Shown here in pieces: positions 2,590 to 62,562 of a stretch of 64,000 nt of DNA. The position numbers were made by a program, and so were the translations under genes. Origin of the DNA: Gracilibacillus salinarum (GTDB lineage Bacteria > Bacillota > Bacilli > Bacillales > Amphibacillaceae); the NCBI RefSeq assembly GCF_022919575.1, contig NZ_CP095071.1, positions 62,001-126,000 on the forward strand, read 5' to 3'. The notes beneath the pieces were generated by a model, which saw only the letters and a program-made list of their open reading frames with translations, ran no database searches and had not been told where the DNA came from. Position 1 is the stretch's first letter. Every line of letters begins with the position of its first letter.

Positions 2590-3610
2590 AGGTAAGAAGG
2601 GTTCAAAAGATTTACCGTATGAAGAAACAGTCGAAATTGCGGAAACAATGCTGACAAACCAGGCAACAGATGCCCAAATTGCCGCCTATTTGGTTGCGGA
2701 ACGTATAAAAATGGAGACGCCTGAAGAATTACTAGCGTTTATTCATACGCTCCAAAAGCATGCGGATCGCTTTGAACTATCAAAAGAAATGCAGCAACAA
2801 ACAATTGATTTTGTCGGTCCTTATAATGGCCGTAATTCATTTGCTGCTACCATTCCTGTTTCGATTTTGTTAGCAGAGCATGGAATTCCTGCTTTTCTTT
2901 CGGCAAGTGATACGTTACCACCGAAATACGGTACATCCTTGAAAGAAGTCATCAAAGCACTTGGCTTAGCATCTGATACCGACAAAGCCACCAATGAAGC
3001 ACGATTTGCACAACATCGTTTTGCTTTTGCAGATACCGAAAAATATTGCTTGCCACTCGCAAGTATTCGGTCGATTCGTAAAGAAATTGGTGTGCGGACG
3101 TTGTTTAATACCGTGGAAAAACTAGTCAATATTGCACAAGCGCGAAATGTTATGCTAGGAGCCTTTCACCGTACTGCAATCAACAATCTTGCACATGTGT
3201 TCAAACAACTTGATTATGACCATGTTTTTCTTGTGCAAGGTTTAGAAGGATCAGAAGATGTGCCTGTCCATCGAAACAGTTTTGTATTTGATTGGACACC
3301 AGATGGTTTGGAATCCTTCTCAGTAAAGCCAAAGGACTATGGTCTGTATTCGGAGGATTATGATAAATCAGTAAAATTGTCTGCAGAAGAGCAGGCAGCT
3401 ATTGTACGTTCTGTCTTTGCTGGGGAAGCATTACCGGAACATCAATATTATTATTATCAGATTCTATTAAATGCCGGGTTGCGCTATTATTTATTCAAAG
3501 TAACCAATTCAATTGAAGAAGGTATTGAGCTGGCCGATCAACAGATAAAATCGGGTAAGGCGATGGAAAAATTACAGCAATTGCAAAAAGACAAATGTGA
3601 GGTGAGTTAA
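2561..3610 (+). CDS. Anthranilate phosphoribosyltransferase-like protein (TrpD2/YbiB type)
   Basis: The 349 residues have the helical N-terminal region and nucleoside-phosphoribosyltransferase fold layout of the TrpD family, including an ETML...ATDAQIAAYLVAERIKMET stretch at about residues 27-54. The glycine-rich GTGGD phosphoribosyl-diphosphate loop of true TrpD is replaced by VGPYNGRNSF, so tryptophan synthesis is unlikely. YbiB-like relatives bind nucleic acid, but the role of this branch is not known to me. It overlaps the chelatase gene by 29 bases and ends the siroheme cluster, which suggests a function tied to nitrite assimilation or siroheme. The start ATG follows GAGAAGGAGCG. Confidence 0.7.
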   Translation: MQQWLKEVARGKKGSKDLPYEETVEIAETMLTNQATDAQIAAYLVAERIKMETPEELLAFIHTLQKHADRFELSKEMQQQTIDFVGPYNGRNSFAATIPVSILLAEHGIPAFLSASDTLPPKYGTSLKEVIKALGLASDTDKATNEARFAQHRFAFADTEKYCLPLASIRSIRKEIGVRTLFNTVEKLVNIAQARNVMLGAFHRTAINNLAHVFKQLDYDHVFLVQGLEGSEDVPVHRNSFVFDWTPDGLESFSVKPKDYGLYSEDYDKSVKLSAEEQAAIVRSVFAGEALPEHQYYYYQILLNAGLRYYLFKVTNSIEEGIELADQQIKSGKAMEKLQQLQKDKCEVS

Positions 3611-3632
3611 ACCTCATATTTGTCCTTTTTGT
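3590..3632 (+). terminator. Intrinsic terminator of the nir-siroheme operon
   Basis: GACAAATGTGAGGT pairs with ACCTCATATTTGTC and is followed by CTTTTTG. The stem begins inside the last codons of the TrpD-like gene. Confidence 0.85.
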
Positions 3633-3639
3633 TCAGTCA

Positions 3640-4326
3640 AGAAAAGTGCAGTCACAGCAGTAACCATTTTGAACATGAAGCTGAGTTCCTATAATATGGA
3701 TTATGTAAACTATCCATCACTAGCCAAGCATCCATTTTGAGATATTTAATATGCTGGGATACCGCTTCAGCCAACCATTCCGCGTCCTGCGGGGCACGGC
3801 TGAAGCTAACTTTGTGAAGAAGGTCGCTTCACAAAGTGGATCTCCAGCACCTGCCTGATCCCGCGGGAGTCTCCGTGGTTGGCCTACGCTAGAATTGGGA
3901 CTCTGCAATTTTTGTAAGAGCTAGCATATTGATCGTATGCATATAATAGCTATCGAAAAATGACTAGAACCACTGCTTTTAGCTGTTCCATATGATGTAG
4001 CATTTCCCTAAAGCGTAGGAAATAGGCGGAGACTCCCGTGGAATCAGCGCGAGCTGAAGATCCACTTCATTTGTGCCTGTGTCTGCAAGCATTGCTTCGA
4101 AGTAAGCTTCCTCGGCACAAGGCAGCAAAGAAGTATTTTCAAGTAGTAGCCTAGCTGAAGCCGTGCCCACAGGACGCGGAGCCTATTTCCGGAGCTTTTC
4201 TAAGCAGATAAAATATATCAAAATGATCATTCTGCAATACAGGCTTTGTTTACATAATCCATATTATAGGAAGTTGTTTACTAATTAAGTCAATAAGGAT
4301 CAGGTGGTTTATGCCCGGTTTTTCCT
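3640..4326 (+). repeat. Intergenic hairpin-pair element, complete copy 2 (A next to L)
   Basis: The order is left flank L with GTGCAGTCACAGCAG at 3647, inverted repeat TATAATATGGATTATGT at 3690-3706, hairpin A 3771-3882 (short tip), spacer, hairpin B 4018-4190 (long tip), matching inverted repeat at 4252-4268, and right flank R ending ATGCCCGGTTTTTCC. This is a good reference copy for the family. It occupies the gap between convergent operons. Confidence 0.9.
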
Positions 4327-4340
4327 ATAAGCAGCGGGAT

Positions 4341-4447
4341 TATATATGTACTGTCATAGAAGTGATCAAGCTGAACATGGGTTCTTTTAATATGGATTAT
4401 GCTAAGACTGTATTTCAAAATAAACACTAACATAATCCATATTATAG
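4341..4447 (+). repeat. Miniature derivative of the intergenic element
   Basis: Directly after copy 2, an L-like stretch (TGTACTGTCATAGAAG) runs into TAATATGGATTATG at 4388-4401 and, after only about 30 bases, ACATAATCCATATTATAG at 4430-4447. Both hairpins are missing, leaving a short palindromic element. Confidence 0.75.
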
Positions 4448-4466
4448 CTAGTTACGAGTGGAAGGT

Positions 4467-5081
4467 TTAAGACCTGTTTCTTTGCTTATGCAGCCATGTT
4501 TGCTGTTCTTTTTTGTCGTAGATGGGGTCTTCTATCAGTTGTGACAACAATTGTTTTTTTAGCTGAGGTGTTAACTCTTGCTGTTTTAGTAATTTTCTTG
4601 CCTGATATAGAAAGTCAACATACTGTTCATATTGATCAGGAATTTCCTGCTCGATTGCATGTTTTATTTTTTTCGCAAGTATGGGACTTGCTCCTCCTGT
4701 TGAAATGGCAATTTGCAGTTTCCCTCTGGTTAGCGTAATAGGGAATTGTACATTGCCATCTTCTGAGCGATGACTGGCGTTAATCCAAGAATGGGAAGGT
4801 GCATGATCGACTATGTATTGGTTGATTGCTTCATCATTGGTTGCAATGATGATTAAGTCGGCATTCTGGAAGTGTTGAAATTTACATTTTTCCTTCAGCC
4901 AATCTATTTGATACCTTTTAATTAATTGATGCAATTCAGCAGTTACTGACGGACTTACCACTGTGATTTTCTGGTAATAGGGAAGCAAGTGCTTCAGCCT
5001 TCGAAGTGCGACTTGTCCACCACCTATGATGACGATTTTTTTATTGTTTAAATTCACAAACAGAGGGGAAAATTGCCTCAT
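4467..5081 (-). CDS. sirC: Precorrin-2 dehydrogenase (SirC/YlnF-like)
   Basis: It oxidises precorrin-2 to sirohydrochlorin with NAD+, the step between CobA and the chelatase. The 204 residues fit the stand-alone SirC family. The N-terminal Rossmann motif VIIGGGQVALRR lies at about residues 17-28, and NASH...VQFP and TGGASPILAKKIK follow in the expected places. It is convergent with the siroheme operon, so the pathway is split over two transcription units, separated by element copy 2 and its miniature. Confidence 0.9.
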   Translation of the reverse strand: MRQFSPLFVNLNNKKIVIIGGGQVALRRLKHLLPYYQKITVVSPSVTAELHQLIKRYQIDWLKEKCKFQHFQNADLIIIATNDEAINQYIVDHAPSHSWINASHRSEDGNVQFPITLTRGKLQIAISTGGASPILAKKIKHAIEQEIPDQYEQYVDFLYQARKLLKQQELTPQLKKQLLSQLIEDPIYDKKEQQTWLHKQRNRS

Positions 5082-5900: not shown

Positions 5901-6441
5901 ATGAGTAGCGTGCCCAGCAAGCCGTTAATTGCTAGTTGGTGAAAGTCCAATACGAGTAAGTGCCAAGACGCTCGGTAGCTGACGAGCAACTGGTGGAGAA
6001 ATCCTAAGGTTGAAGCCTCGTGACAAAGTAACTCTTTAGGGAGTGCGAGCAACTTAGCAGGTCGTAACATAAAGTGAATCTTGTAGCCTCGACAATTACA
6101 ACCCTCTAAGAGGAACAAGGGAAGTCTAGCCTCTTGCTCATAGGTGAAGACCATGGAAGGTGTAAAGAACTTGGATAGACAACACCAAAGAATCCCTCGG
6201 GGTATGGAGATCGACATGTTAAGAAAGTAGTTAACGGAACTGGGGATATCCTCCTCGGTCACTTCAGAGAAGAAGTAAAACAAAAACCTATAAGCGTAAT
6301 GTGAAATGGTGGATGGGCTGAGAGGAAGTCGGAGGGGGTTATAGTACCGAAGAAAGCCATGACAACACAACGTGGCTGAAGGGAAGGACGGCAGAAGCCA
6401 ATTCCCTACTTCGTTCATATGTTTTAAGGAGGTAAGAGTGA

Positions 6442-7737
6442 GTGAATGCTAAAATAGCTAACTACACCAATAATGTAAAAGCTCGACAACTTCAACGAAC
6501 ATTATACCTTTGTGCCAAGGGAAGTAAGACACGGCGGTTCCATGCGTTATATGATAAGATGCATCGACCTGATATCCTATGGGAAGCATGGCGAAGAGTG
6601 AGAGAAAATAGAGGAGGTAGCGGGGTCGATCAACAAACACTGGAAGATATCAGTGATTATGGAGAAAAGAAGTTCTTGAATGAGCTCTACGTGGAATTGA
6701 AAGAGAAAGACTATCAGCCTCAACCCGTGCTACGAACCTATATACCGAAAGATGATGGAAAGAAACGACCACTAGGCATCCCAACGGTGAAGGACAGGGT
6801 TGCACAAATGGCAATGAAGATTGTAATCGAACCCATTTTTGAGGCGGACTTTAAAGAAAGTTCGTATGGGTTTCGTCCAAAGCGAAATGCTCATCAAGCG
6901 ATTGCGAAAATTCGCAAAGAGAGTAAACGAAGCTATTGGGTGTTAGACGTCGACATCCAAGGTTACTTTGACAACATCAATCATGAAAAGTTGATGAAAT
7001 TGGTAGAACAGCGTATAAGTGACCGGAGAATTCTCAAGTTAGTCCGTAAATGGTTAAAAGCAGGTATTATGGAAGACGGTTCGTTACAAGAATCGGAATG
7101 GGGTGCTCCGCAAGGCGGGGTCATTTCACCATTACTATCTAATGTTTGCCTAAATGTCATGGACACGATATGGGAAAAGCAGTTTGGTCATTTGGGAACG
7201 CTGATTCGATATGCGGACGATTTTGTCATTATGTGTAAAACCAAGCAACAAGCACTAGGGAGTATACGTGTGATTCAAGGAATCATGAAGAAACTGGATT
7301 TAACGTTACACGAAGGCAAATCAAAGCTTGTCAATATCTGGGATGATAATGAAGGGTTTGATTTCTTAGGTTTTCATCATCGAAAGTTTCCTGTACGGAA
7401 GAAAGGCGGTCACGTTTTCTATTTCATGCATCATATTCCTAGTAAGAAAGCGATGAAGAAGATGCGAAAGAAAATAAAAGAATATACATCACCACGTTTT
7501 AAATTACATGTAGACATGGAAGAATTAATAGAAGGCTTAAATCGCAAATTACAAGGATTTAAGAATTACTATCAACTCTCTCCAATGTCCAAAAGATGGT
7601 TAAATCGAATTGATTGGTATGTATTACAGCGACTAAACATCTTTCGTAACAACAAGAAGAATAGGCGGTATAAGCATGGTTATCTGCAAGAAACAGCCAA
7701 AGAAGTAAGTTACAAACTAGTGAAACTGGCTATATAA
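6442..7737 (+). CDS. ltrA: Group II intron reverse transcriptase/maturase
   Basis: The 431-residue intron-encoded protein splices and mobilises the intron. RT blocks include GSGVD near 59-63, RPLGIPTVKDRVAQ at 109-122, SYGFRPKRNAHQA at 141-153, DVDIQGYFDNI at 169-179, GAPQGGVISPLLSN at 221-234 and the catalytic YADD at 257-260. The maturase X region follows, with GFKNYY. The protein ends just after X with no HNH endonuclease domain, so integration would not use second-strand cleavage by this protein. The start is GTG after AAGGAGGTAAGAGTGA. All RT motifs look intact. Confidence 0.93.
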   Translation: MNAKIANYTNNVKARQLQRTLYLCAKGSKTRRFHALYDKMHRPDILWEAWRRVRENRGGSGVDQQTLEDISDYGEKKFLNELYVELKEKDYQPQPVLRTYIPKDDGKKRPLGIPTVKDRVAQMAMKIVIEPIFEADFKESSYGFRPKRNAHQAIAKIRKESKRSYWVLDVDIQGYFDNINHEKLMKLVEQRISDRRILKLVRKWLKAGIMEDGSLQESEWGAPQGGVISPLLSNVCLNVMDTIWEKQFGHLGTLIRYADDFVIMCKTKQQALGSIRVIQGIMKKLDLTLHEGKSKLVNIWDDNEGFDFLGFHHRKFPVRKKGGHVFYFMHHIPSKKAMKKMRKKIKEYTSPRFKLHVDMEELIEGLNRKLQGFKNYYQLSPMSKRWLNRIDWYVLQRLNIFRNNKKNRRYKHGYLQETAKEVSYKLVKLAI

Positions 7738-7767
7738 CCCGTAAAGCCAAAGGAAGAAGAACGTCGG

Positions 7768-7804
7768 AAAGCCGTATGAAGGAAAACTTCACGTACGGTT
7801 TGAT
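7768..7804 (+). ncRNA. Group II intron domain V
   Basis: AGCCGTATGAAG, a GAAA loop and ACTTCACGTACGGTT form the characteristic catalytic hairpin 30 bases after the RT stop. The AGC/GTT base and the CG bulge position fit the family. Confidence 0.9.
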
Positions 7805-7911
7805 GAGGGGAAATAGGAGGAGGATACTACCTTTCAGTCTGGCTTAGTAAGGTGGAACACCCTGAAACCCGAGGACAGAAGACAATATCCAATTCCTGTT
7901 TTCTACTCTAC

Positions 7912-8473
7912 AAGAAAGTATATAAGTACAGTAACAGCAGTAATCATTTTGAACATGAAGCTGAGTTCCTATAATATGGATTATGTAAACAAAGTCTGTA
8001 TTGCAGAATGATCATTTTGATATATTTTATCTGCTTAGAAAAGCTCCGGAAATAGGATCCGCGTCCTGTGGGCACGGCTTCAGCTAACTTATGAAAGAAA
8101 ATTCTTTTCTTTCATAAGTGGATCTTCAGCTCGCGCTGATTCCACGGGAGTCTCCGCCTATTTCCTAAGCTTTAGGGAAGTGCTACATCATATGGAACAG
8201 CTAAAAGCAGTTGTTCTAATCATTTTTCGATAGCTATTATATGCAAACGATCAATATGCTAGCTCTACCAAAAATTGTAGAGTCCCAATTCTAGCGTAGG
8301 CCAACCACGGAGACTCCCGCAGGACGCGGAGTGGTTGGACAGAGCGGTATTCTAGCACATTAAATATCTCAATATGGATGCTTGGCTAGCAATGGCTGAC
8401 ATAATCCATATTATAGGAAGTTGTTTATTAATTAAGTCAATTAGGACCGGGTGGGTTATGCCCGGTTTTTCTT
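7912..8473 (+). repeat. Intergenic hairpin-pair element, copy 3, core reversed (B next to L)
   Basis: Flank L and inverted repeat TATAATATGGATTATGT (7970-7986) are as in copy 2, and the right repeat (8399-8415) and flank R are also in the usual orientation. Between them the order is reversed: hairpin B (8048-8165, short tip) comes first and hairpin A (8301-8338) second. The 70 bases after the left repeat are nearly identical to the reverse complement of the 70 bases before the right repeat of copy 2. Hairpin A has lost its whole tip, leaving a 38-base stem. Confidence 0.9.
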
Positions 8474-8483
8474 AGTCGATTAA

Positions 8484-8540
8484 CAATAAAGTAGCTCGGT
8501 GCAGTGAAAATATAAAATGTAGCAAGTATACGAAAGCAAG
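8484..8540 (+). repeat. Short repeat family 2, copy a
   Basis: AGTAGCTCGGTGCAGTGAAAA followed by AGCAAGTATACGAAAGC resembles stretches at 43671, 47690 and 55158 with the shared pattern GACGYAGTGAAAA...AAGTATA. All lie beside the large intergenic elements or in a gene-free gap. Confidence 0.5.
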
Positions 8541-8581
8541 ACATAAAGGAGAATTTCAAGCTCAAAAAGAAGTGCGGTGCC

Positions 8582-8748
8582 TATAATACGGATTATGTAG
8601 AGTAGAACTGTCAGATATTGCAGTAATTTTAATAGATTATATTGACTTTGCAAAGCTCCTAAAAATTATCCCGCCGGACGCGGGGCGGTGTCTAAGCAGA
8701 CGAAATATTGCAAAATTACCACAAAACTGCTACATAATCCGTATTATA
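8582..8748. repeat. MITE-like miniature element with perfect 19-base inverted repeats
   Basis: TATAATACGGATTATGTAG at 8582-8600 is exactly repeated in inverse at 8730-8748. The interior keeps traces of hairpin material (AAAGCTCC, CCGGACGCGGGGCGG) from the large element. The repeat differs from the large family's by one base (ACGG for ATGG), and both ends carry that change. Confidence 0.82.
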
Positions 8749-8837
8749 GGCAACTTTATTATATTCTTATTCTTTAAGTTGAATTGTTAATTTGGACTAA
8801 ATATGAAATGAAGTCTTGCTTTTTTCAAAATATGTCA

Positions 8838-25760: not shown

Positions 25761-26512
25761 GACAAGAAAGTACAGCCACAACAGTAATCATATTTTTAAC
25801 ATGAAGTTGAGTTCTTATAATATGGATTATGTCAGCCATCGCTGCCAAGCATCCATATTGAGATATTTAATGTGCTGGGATACCGCTTCGGCCAACCACT
25901 CCGCGTCTTGCGGGGCCCGGCTGAAACTAAGCTACTACCCGAAATACTTCTCTGCTGCCTTGCACCGAGGAAGCCTACGTCGAAGCTTTACTAGTAGACG
26001 CAGGTGCAGACGTTGTGGATCTCCAGCACCTGCTTGTCCCGCGGGAGTCTATGTGGTTGGCCTCCGCTGATGTATAGCTCCACAATTTATGCGACAGCTA
26101 GGATATGAAGCATTGTCTGCAAGATTTACACCTTAATTGATGAAATACATTGCCTAGCACGACTGCTTTTTGCTGTTACATAAGTTGTAGGACTTCCCTC
26201 AAGCATAGGAAATAGGCGGAGACTCCCGTGGAATCAGCGCGAGCTGAAGATCCATTTCATTTGTGCCTGTGTCTGCAAGTATCGCTTCGAAGTGAGCTTC
26301 CTCGGCACAAGGCAGCAAAGAAGCTGTTCAAGTAGTATCCTAACTGAATCCGTGCCCACAGGACGCGGAGCCTATTTCCGGAGCTTTGCTATGCACATAA
26401 TAACTATCAAAATAGCCACAAAGTGAAACAGCTCCAGTTAACATAATCCATTTTATAAGTAGTTGTATATTATTTTGTTAGTTAGGACCAGGTAAAATTC
26501 CCTGTTTTTTCT
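25761..26512 (+). repeat. Intergenic hairpin-pair element, complete copy 4 (A next to L)
   Basis: Inverted repeats lie at 25816-25832 and 26441-26457. Hairpins A and B both have the long tip containing GCTTTACTAGTAGACGCAGG or GTATCGCTTCGAAGTG-type sequence. Flank R is slightly decayed (GGACCAGGTAAAATTCCCTG). It fills the gap between the deoC terminator and splA; I see no clear sporulation promoter in the remaining 130 bases. Confidence 0.88.
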
Positions 26513-29490: not shown

Positions 29491-30190
29491 AGAAAAAACC
29501 GTGCATAACCCGCCCGGTCCTAATTGATTAAATTATATCCAACTACCTATAATATGAATTATATTAACTGGAGCTGTTTCACTTTGTGGCTATTTTGATA
29601 GTTATTATGTGCATAGCAAAGCTCCGGAAATAGGCTCCGCGTCCTGTGAGCACAGCTTCAGCTAGGCTACTACTTGAAAATGCTTCTTTGCTGCCTTGTG
29701 GCGAGGAAGCTTACTTCGAAGCAATGCATGCAGACACAGGCACAAATGAACTGGATCTACAGCTCGCGCTGATTCCACGGGAGTCTCCGCCTATTTCCTA
29801 CGCTTGAAGGAAGTGCTACAAATTATGTAACAGCAAAAAGCAGTCGTGCTAGGAATGTATCTCATCAATTATGGTGTGAATCTTGCAGATAGTGCTTCAT
29901 ATCCTAGCTGTCGAATAAATTGTGGAGCTATACATCAGCGGAGGCCAACCACGGAGACTCCCGCGGGATTGTGCAGGTGCTGGAGATCCACTTTGTGAAG
30001 CGTTCTTCTTCACAAAGTTAGCTCCAGCCGTGCCCCGCAGGACGCGAGTGGTTGGACGGAGCGGTATCATACCACACATATTTTTTCAAAATGACCACTA
30101 AGCTGCTAGTTTACATAATCCATATTATAGGAACTCATCTTCATGTTGAATATGATTACTGCTGTAACTGCACTTATATGCTTTTTTGAC
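29491..30190 (-). repeat. Intergenic hairpin-pair element, complete copy 5, on the minus strand
   Basis: The entire element is reversed: flank R (with GCATAACCCGCCCGGTCC) is on the left, inverted repeats are at 29548-29564 and 30113-30129, and flank L is on the right. Read on the minus strand the order is L, A (short tip), B (long tip), R, so A lies next to L. It fills the gap between the YteA-like gene and leuD. Confidence 0.88.
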
Positions 30191-43745: not shown

Positions 43746-44370
43746 ACGGTCATAGCAGTAATTATATTGAACATGAAGTTGAGTTCCTATAATATGGATT
43801 ATGTTAACTAAGCATTACTAGCTAAGCATCCATATTGAGATATTTAATGTGCTAGAATACCGCTCTGTCCAACCACTTCGCGTCCTGCGGGGCACGGCTG
43901 AAGCTAACTTTGTGAAGAAGAGCGCATCACAAAGTGGATCTTCAGCGCCTGCCTGTTCCGCGGGAGTCTCCGTGGTTGGCCTACGCTAGAATTGGGCTTC
44001 TACAATTTTTGGTAGAGCTAGCATATTGATTGTATGCATAAATAATAGTTATTGAAAAATGCCTAGAACCACTGCTTTTTGCTGTTCCATGCATTGTAGC
44101 ACTTCCCTTAAGCGTAGGAAATATGCGGAGACTCCCGTGGAATCAGCGCGAGCTGAAGATCCACTTGGTAAAGAAAAGAATTTTCTTTACCAAGTTAGCT
44201 GAAGCCGTGCCCACAGGACGCGGAGCCTATTTCCGGAGCTTTGCTAAGCAGATAAACGATATCAAAATGACCATTTGGCAATACAGTCTTTGTTGACATA
44301 ATCCATATTATAGGAAGTTGTTTATTAATTAAGTCAATGAGGACCGGGTGGGTTATGCCCGGTTTTTCTT
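43735..44370 (+). repeat. Intergenic hairpin-pair element, complete copy 6 (A next to L)
   Basis: Inverted repeats are at 43788-43804 and 44296-44312. Both hairpins carry short tips: AACTTTGTGAAG/CTTCACAAAGT-like in A, and ACTTGGTAAAGAAAA with its complement in B. Flank R ends in ACCGGGTGGGTTATGCCCGGT and TTTTCTT at 44370. Confidence 0.9.
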
Positions 44371-50188: not shown

Positions 50189-50885
50189 CAAAGAAAGTAT
50201 ATAAGTGCAGTCATAGAAGTAATCATGCTGAATAGGAAGATGGGTTCCTATAATATGGATTATGTAAACTACCCATTGCTAGCCGAGCACCCATGTTGAG
50301 ATATTTAATGTGCTGGGATACCGCTTCGTCCAACCACTCCGCGTCCTGCGGGGCACGGCTGAAGCTAACTTTGTGAAGAAGAGCACTTCACAAAGTGGAT
50401 CTTCAGCACCTGCACAATCCCGCGGGAGTCTCCGTGGTTGGCCTACGCTGATGTATAGCTCCACAATTTATGCGACAGCTAGGATATGAAGCACTATCTG
50501 CAAGATTTACACCATAATTGATGAGATACATTCCTAGCACGACTGCTTTTTGCTGTTACATAATTTGTAGCACTTCCCTCAAGCGTAGGAAATAGGCGGA
50601 GACTCCCGTGGAATCAGCGCGAGCTGAAGATCCATTTTATTTGTGCCTGTATTGCTTCGAAGTGGGCTTCCTCGGCACAAGGCAGCAAAGATGCTGTTCA
50701 AGCAGTAGCCTAGCTGAAGCCGTGCCCACAGGACGCGGAGCCTATTTCCGGAGCTTTGCAACGCAGATAAAATATTTCAAAATGACCGTTTTGCCATATA
50801 GCCTTAGTTGACATAATCCATACTATAGGAAGTTGTTTATTAATTAAGTCAACTAGGACCGGGCGGTTTATGCCCGATTTTTCTT
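50189..50885 (+). repeat. Intergenic hairpin-pair element, complete copy 7 (A next to L)
   Basis: Inverted repeats are at 50249-50265 and 50811-50827. Hairpin A has the short tip, and hairpin B a long tip with an internal deletion (GTGCCTGTATTGCTTCGAAG). Flank R ends GGGCGGTTTATGCCCGATTTTT. Confidence 0.9.
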
Positions 50886-54370: not shown

Positions 54371-55152
54371 CGAGTAAGCAAGTATTAACGTACTGTCACA
54401 TAGAAGGAATCAGTGAAGAACAAGAAAATGGGTTCTTATAATGTGGATTATGTCAAATAGAATTGTATGTAGATGTGGCAATTTTGATTGAGAAATATGT
54501 GCTTAGCAAAGCTCTGTAAATTGGCTCCGCGTCCTGTGGAACGGCTTCAGCTAGGCTACTACTTGAACAGCATCTTTGCTGCCTTGTGCCGAGGAAGCCC
54601 ACTTCGAAGCAATGCTTGCAGACACAGGCACAAATGAAGTGGATCTTCAGCTCGCGCTGAGGCATGAGGAGTCTCCGCCTATTTCCTACGCTTAAAGGAA
54701 GCACTACACCACTAGTGACAATTAAAAGCAGCAGTGCTAAGCATCAAATCTCCATCATTCGCAATGCAATTGTTAATTGTTGCTTTTGGATGGCAATCTA
54801 CATGGTAAATCTTACATTAGTTGTAGAGCCCCTATCCTAGCGTAGGCTAACCACGGAGACTCCCGCGGGACAGGCAGGCGCTGAAGATCCACAACGTCTG
54901 CACCTGCGTCTTCTAGTAACGCTTCGAAGTAAGCTTCCTCGGTGCAAGGCAGCAAAGAAGTGATTCGTGTAGTAGCCTAGCTTCAGCCGTGCCCCGCAGG
55001 ACGCGGAGTGGTTGAACGGAGCGGTATCCCAGCACATGAATCATTTCAAAATTACCACTAAGCATAAAGCGGCTAGTTTACATAATCCATATTATAGGAA
55101 ATTGTATATAAATTACATCAATTAGGACCGAAGAGTTATGTCCGGTTTTTCT
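54371..55152 (+). repeat. Intergenic hairpin-pair element, copy 8, core reversed (B next to L)
   Basis: Flanks L and R keep the usual direction, with inverted repeats at 54437-54453 and 55080-55096, but hairpin B precedes hairpin A. Both have long tips. This is the second copy, after copy 3, with an inverted core. It separates dapH from the deacetylase gene. Confidence 0.9.
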
Positions 55153-62042: not shown

Positions 62043-62562
62043 TATAGAAAGTATATAAGTATAGTCATAGAAGTAATCAGGCTGAATTGGAAGTTTGGTT
62101 CCTTTAAAATGGATTATGTTAACTAACAGCTTAGTAGCCATTTTGAAATATCTCATCTGCTTGGATACCGCTCCGTCCAACCACTTCGCGTCCTGCGGGG
62201 CACGGCTGAAGCTAACTTTGTGAAGAAGACCACTTCACAAAGTGGATCTTCAGCACCTGCCTGTTCCGCGGGAGTCTACGTGGTTGACCTACGCTGATTT
62301 ATAGCTCCACAATTTATGTGACAGCTAGGATATAAAGCACTATCTGCAAGATTTACACCTTAATTGATGAATTTCAGTGCCTAGCACGTGTTACATCCAT
62401 TGCAGAACTTCTCTAAAACGTAGGAAATAGGCGGAGACTCCCGTGGGATCAGTATGAGCTGAAGATCCACTTTGTTTGTGCCTGTGTCTGCAAGCATTGC
62501 TCCGAAGTAAGCTTCCTCGGTACAAGGCAGCAAGGAAGCATTACATAATTCATAGTATAAGT
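62043..62562 (+). repeat. Intergenic hairpin-pair element, truncated copy 9 (A next to L)
   Basis: Flank L, the left inverted repeat (62103-62119, TTTAAAATGGATTATGT) and hairpin A (short tip) are normal. Hairpin B stops inside its long tip at about 62540 and runs straight into a right inverted repeat, ACATAATTCATAGTATA (62543-62559). Flank R is missing. The deletion removed half of B but spared the repeat. Confidence 0.85.

Follow-up and report, generated by a model that had tools for sequence, protein, structure and literature searches.

Dispersed non-coding elements of the Gracilibacillus salinarum chromosome end in inverted dif-like sites and carry their cores in both orientations

Results

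The window analysed here, that is, the whole stretch of 64,000 nucleotides, corresponds to bases 62001-126000 of the single 4,801,263-base contig of Gracilibacillus salinarum (genome G000). It holds several copies of one element, in which two core halves, P and Q (A and B in an earlier note on this DNA), lie between terminal repeats described below as dif-like sites, with outer flanks, L and R, beyond them; the standard order is L-P-Q-R. In window coordinates, the features are:

3684..4274, + strand, copy 2 from dif-like site to dif-like site (3689-4269 by the outer ends of its 17-bp repeats), L-P-Q-R, standard
4385..4447, + strand, 63-bp miniature, two repeats with the core almost absent
7912..7963, + strand, L flank of copy 3, a direct match to the L flanks of other copies; its left limit is approximate and abuts the group II intron
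7964..7991, + strand, left dif-like site of copy 3, assigned from its sequence, the 28-bp consensus and B. subtilis dif (PMC3025954): XerC-type arm 7964-7974, spacer TATGGA 7975-7980, XerD-type arm 7981-7991
7969-8416, + strand, copy 3 by the outer ends of its 17-bp repeats, L-Q-P-R, inverted
7992..8393, + strand, core of copy 3, order Q-P, inverted relative to copy 2
8394..8421, - strand, right dif-like site of copy 3, inverted, XerD-type arm inwards, assigned from its sequence and the consensus
8422..8473, + strand, R flank of copy 3, with a terminator-like hairpin at 8452-8464
8581..8749, + strand, 169-bp short copy, flanks uncalled
25815..26458, + strand, standard copy, L-P-Q-R
29547..30130, - strand, standard copy, R-Q-P-L as read on the + strand
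43787..44313, + strand, standard copy, L-P-Q-R
50248..50828, + strand, standard copy, L-P-Q-R
54436..55097, + strand, second inverted copy, L-Q-P-R
62102..62560, + strand, partly decayed copy, only L and P called

A core-like copy with no recognised dif-like site pair at its ends lies at 322-846. A group II intron with a reverse transcriptase ORF (5933-7911), located 3' of a terminator-like hairpin, directly adjoins the L flank of copy 3; it was the sole Rfam match in the window, and positions 3600-4500 gave nothing at E up to 1. Comparison of copy 2 with plasmid records gave no match.

Copy 3 carries its core reversed with respect to copy 2. Positions 7966-8086 are 98% complementary to 4152-4272 over 121 nt and positions 8116-8324 are 96% complementary to 3859-4067 over 209 nt, while copy 3 aligns with other copies in the direct sense on its L side (7900-7992) and on its R side (8397-8482). 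These matches confirm the order L-B-A-R with flanks in the standard direction, as the earlier note had read it, and the reverse-complement match to copy 2 that it had noticed over about 70 bases is there as well. Copy 3 is thus inverted, as had been claimed, but is no exception, since the second copy at 54436-55097 and 18 of 49 callable sampled copies are inverted as well.

The further suggestion that the element is an invertible DNA switch found no support. We found 0 promoter-like matches in 7880-8520, where 2.0 were expected in shuffles, and two terminator-like matches in the same interval; ORFs in copy 3 reach 40-57 aa only, and the promoter or gene that an invertible promoter system carries within its inverting segment was not seen there. 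Both strands of the core fold about equally well as RNA (48 standard and 21 inverted elements). A TATAAT in the XerC-type arm is a possible -10 box in combination with the L flank, and it stays put on inversion. As the core is partly self-complementary, its strands fold about alike and copy 3 has no promoter-like match, the flip looks nearly neutral.

Across 132 ends from 66 G000 elements, the 17-base repeats turned out to be the middle of 28-bp sites. The earlier note had explained the core inversion by recombination at the 17-base repeats; that the exchange takes place at the terminal inverted repeats has good support, described below, but the repeat unit is about 28 bp and not 17. The consensus of the element sites, AGTTCCTATAA-TATGGA-TTATGTAAACT (that is, AGTTCCTATAATATGGATTATGTAAACT), is identical in 24 of 28 bases to the dif of B. 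subtilis, given as ACTTCCTAGAATATATATTATGTAAACT in PMC3025954, and single ends share on average 21.5 of 28 bases with it. Xer sites are described as two 11-bp arms around a 6-bp centre, following the rule ATAA-centre-TTAT (PMC11705084). In the 132 ends, ATAA occupies positions 8-11 and TTAT positions 18-21, with 1.58-2.00 bits each, and the XerD-type arms point inwards at both element ends, which places the two sites in inverted orientation. By these features, the terminal repeats are dif-like, putative Xer sites with Xer-type arms and an altered spacer.

The likely native dif of G000, with spacer TATATA, is located at 530032-530059, where the GC skew flips its sign: it is +0.049 over the 24 kb that begin at 518 kb and -0.034 over the 24 kb after them. 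The distance from this site to the window is about 400-470 kb, and to copy 3 about 460 kb. In the congeners G002, G006, G009 and G022 the single dif equals the element site except in the spacer (26 bases scanned). Near-perfect palindromes of two XerD-type arms, AGTTTACATAA-6-TTATGTAAACT, were also seen at G000 434037 and 449689 and at 3540029 of the congener G011, on one side of dif. They are reminiscent of XerD-binding sites that have been reported close to the terminus of B. subtilis.

The repeat motif occurs at 542 places of the 4.80-Mb G000 genome (280+262, at up to 2 mismatches; reversed control 3+2), well in excess of chance, which corresponds to about 270 elements, and exact repeats lie on both strands. 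Pairing of sites into elements gave 46 in 864 kb, scaling to about 256 genome-wide, with sampled lengths of 63-662 bp from repeat to repeat. G011 has the element motif at 168+170 places (control 0+0). At up to 2 mismatches, 15 other congeners have one dif-like site apiece and G011 has 10; among the congeners scanned, multiplied dif-like sites are common to G000 and G011 only. A stricter element pattern, searched in 397 genomes of the order drawn without G011, matched only G000 (252) and one other genome (one place), and the exact element pattern had 0 matches in the named genome collection, which may omit close relatives of G000. Parts of the core hairpin recur in G012 and other congeners having one dif-like site, which suggests that the core motif predates the dif-like ends it now has.

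To describe orientation, we sampled 864 contiguous kb of G000 and 16 further evenly spaced 20-kb stretches, which together hold the 66 elements. Both flanks could be called in 21 elements of order L-P-Q-R and 10 of order L-Q-P-R; with single-flank calls added, 31 are standard, 18 inverted and 17 uncallable or mixed. The flank caller assigned a label to 1 of 281 random 60-mers. With other reference sequences, the 864-kb part gave 28 standard and 10 inverted of 46 elements, and in G011 the figures were 12 and 7 among 32. One of the uncallable or mixed elements, G000 158387-158924, has an L-type flank at both sides, the outcome expected from exchange between different elements.

The place of the exchange was read from 86 ends carrying both a flank and a core label. 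Outer nucleotides track the flank label, with mutual information that reaches 0.70 bit outside the site and is 0.67 at dif position 2 and 0.09 at position 7; inner nucleotides, beginning at position 26, track the core label (0.62 bit at position 31). At positions 8-25 neither label rises above the shuffled 95% level, mostly since these positions hardly vary, although position 24 does vary and tracks neither; the near-invariance of positions 8-23 prevents a finer placing by this linkage test. A pair of elements, G000 819488 and 1012335, is more informative. They are identical in 528 of 531 columns from repeat to repeat, with cores opposite relative to the same L flank, which is joined to the P end in one and to the Q end in the other, while their R flanks differ in sequence. 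The shared L run comprises 52 identical bases, 29 of flank plus dif positions 1-23. A rare G at position 7 stays with L and position 24 goes with the core, which puts the crossover within dif positions 8-23, spacer included. Flank and core labels thus part within the site, and the flipped pair agrees, so the exchange falls inside the repeats and not outside them, as the earlier note required. Inversion of the core by exchange inside the terminal dif-like sites is well supported by these comparisons.

The same exchange might be produced without Xer proteins, if the quasi-palindromic element formed a cruciform or made a replication fork switch template and the core was then flipped by homologous or illegitimate exchange at the paired end repeats. 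Copy 2 folds far better than its shuffles (z -12.2), and the identity of cores with their own reverse complements is 57%, compared with 45% after shuffling (n=70), so the two ends of an element can lie side by side. Yet in length and letters the inverted segment that the ends share comes close to dif, and it is here, rather than in the longer self-complementary arms, that the exchange lands. A 28-bp repeat is, moreover, short for homologous recombination. We consider this non-Xer origin unlikely.

Comparison with G011 adds a second genome, since 62-888 kb of G000 and 3.10-3.90 Mb of G011 are collinear. Scored by P and Q, 20 compared loci were opposite in 8 cases, the same in 5 and uncallable or conflicting in 7. 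At G000 460504 and G011 3512513 the alignment of the flanks continues across both sites (100 and 108 of 132), and the core is flipped; this is the only locus well aligned on both sides, so the other cross-species cases may include independent insertions. The locus of copy 3 corresponds in G011 to a collinear gap of 685 bp in which the P and Q signals conflict and a full site pair is lacking.

Gaps shorter than 200 bp lie opposite 16 G000 elements in G011, and opposite 10 in the reverse comparison. No element trace was found at the 95% level in 14 of the 16 and 6 of the 10, whereas 2 of the 16 and 4 of the 10 keep part of an element above the 95% null, and so does, by eye, one more, opposite G011 3131596. 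The 95% null was used because the 99% null, by which every gap would count as clean, was spoilt by decayed elements among its random pieces. The gaps with no element trace indicate that the element family has been mobile. Most inserted stretches reach beyond the repeats by L and R, and at G011 3510918 the left insertion point is at the repeat itself, although many flanks are too diverged for empty-site comparisons to give exact insertion units. No target duplication was noticed by eye in these comparisons, and several insertions lie, also by eye, 3' of terminator-like sequences. At G000 191703, 499675 and 531760 a different dispersed repeat, TCAAGAAAGTATAAATTTT...GATGTTCGCTGACAGAAACG, follows directly after the R flank, and its start resembles the L start.

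On a quick tree of 72 cores turned one way (41 from the sample, 31 chosen because they resemble copies 2 and 3), orientation has to change 17 times, and well-supported (starred) branches force 12 of these changes. With shuffled labels the mean is 19.7, and 17 or fewer changes sufficed in 44-54 of 500 shuffles. The best core relative of copy 3, G000 2959037 (88%), has flanks too diverged for calling. Standard junctions number 56 of 86 (p 0.009), a weak association of flank and core labels which means that the mixing of orientations is incomplete. It could be proposed that nothing flips in place, and that at least two founder forms, L-P-Q-R and L-Q-P-R, spread as units and passed on old inversions. 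The mobility seen in the element/empty-gap differences between G000 and G011 and the excess of the standard order speak for such founders; orientation is nevertheless scattered on the core tree almost as if shuffled, and the near-identical cores at 819488 and 1012335 differ in it. We judge this explanation very unlikely, and repeated inversion of the core, many independent times, is well supported by its distribution on the tree.

The native spacer TATATA was found in 0 of 132 G000 ends and 0 of 64 G011 ends, the prevailing spacers being TATGGA in G000 (99 of 132) and TACGGA in G011 (38 of 64). Both spacers of an element are identical in 45 of 66 G000 elements, where 37.2 are expected (0.0002 of shuffles), leaving 21 unequal, and in 22 of 32 G011 elements, where 12.9 are expected (0 of 5000 shuffles), leaving 10 unequal. 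Like spacers at paired sites, a mark of dif modules, thus occur above shuffles in both genomes. Their identity shows no tie to orientation (standard, 19 same and 5 different; inverted, 6 same and 3 different). Equal pairs, TATAGA/TATAGA among them, are compatible with exchange from site to site within an element, and could equally be expected from inheritance of a parent copy. According to PMC11705084, recombination does not occur between sites whose central regions are not closely related, nor in the absence of XerC. As to exchange between sites of different elements, no opposite-strand alignment longer than 1 kb was found in the 825 kb compared. Pairing would seem to be restricted to the nearest partner site.

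Genes for XerD (641657-642550) and XerC (265936-266838) are present in G000 above the NCBIfam cut-offs, and the genome has 11 PF00589 matches. A XerS-family gene (528842-529930; L077:2842-3930) scores 402 bits against a cut-off of 267 and ends about 100 bp from the native dif, and this neighbourhood, like the number of PF00589 matches, would suit another tyrosine recombinase, such as the XerS-family protein, as the agent of flipping. The XerS cut-off is exceeded in only 2 of 17 congeners (G000 and G004), and G011, which falls below it, has elements in both orientations, so XerS is unnecessary for both orientations to arise. The sites also carry arms of XerC/XerD type around a 6-bp spacer. A role of XerS or a similar enzyme is in our view most improbable.

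Discussion

We propose that the housekeeping XerC and XerD would pair the two inverted dif-like sites of one element, and that strand exchange in the 6-bp spacer would invert the core and leave the flanks L and R unmoved. TATGGA in place of the native TATATA would keep the element sites from recombining with true dif. To this reading, in which XerC/XerD invert each cassette at its inverted sites and the altered spacer separates these from true dif, we assign a probability of about 0.7. The identity of the enzyme as XerCD and the action of the spacer change as a barrier are both what we infer from sequence. In a wider form, about 270 non-coding dif modules may have colonised the chromosome and may flip genome-wide via the essential XerCD, the two-base spacer change forming a channel separate from true dif and thereby allowing them to coexist with dimer resolution, a proposal that we hold at slightly better than even odds.

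Several points bear on this proposal. The incomplete mixing of orientations, the lack of visible exchange between different elements in the 825 kb compared, and spacer identity that does not go with orientation all speak against it. In Acinetobacter, XerD cleavage at dif is described as requiring FtsK; a similar control would favour the terminus, whereas the elements sit everywhere, which would count against the XerCD reading. Also, the flip model leaves the spread of whole elements unexplained, because inverted sites cannot excise a circle.

The closest known kind are the dif (pdif) modules of Acinetobacter. In the D-type modules, as described in PMC13141974 and PMC12907356, two dif-like sites in opposite orientation, their XerD arms pointing inwards, enclose a segment, as in the G000 elements; the same sources report that the segment inverts where the spacers of its sites are alike, and describe one D module with no predicted ORF. 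The Acinetobacter modules, as these sources present them, lie mainly on Rep_3/OrfX plasmids, D alternating with C modules, and mostly contain genes. The G000 elements are instead solitary, non-coding and located in a Gram-positive chromosome, with about 270 copies of one family and conserved outer flanks; being chromosomal and dispersed, they show no C/D alternation on a Rep_3/OrfX plasmid. The element may therefore be regarded as a chromosomal, non-coding analogue of a dif module.

Inversion between short inverted repeats is also shared with Xer-type phase-variable systems. At the Ureaplasma mba locus, short inverted repeats are bound by the Xer-type recombinase XerC and the segment between them inverts; inversions of this type are presented as individual loci that contain genes and affect expression, with repeats other than dif (PMC3599477). 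The G000 elements, in contrast, have dif-like sites and many copies, and no output was seen. With MITE-like bacterial repeats they share being short, non-coding, high-copy, structured and intergenic with inverted repeats, but their repeats are dif-like and usually do not mark where the conserved unit ends, as L and R lie outside. The only dif modules that we found in the open full-text literature searched came from Acinetobacter, dif-flanked repeats of Bacillaceae did not turn up there, and PMC13141974 calls the dif-module system unique to Acinetobacter.

The element sequence itself records the flips of that element. Chromosomes normally carry one dif, guarded by where it lies and, in the cases studied, by FtsK. 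About 540 dif-like sites in one genome constitute a natural experiment on what limits Xer recombination, be it spacer, distance or translocase. If our reading is true, the dif-module lifestyle would extend from Acinetobacter plasmids to a Gram-positive chromosome.
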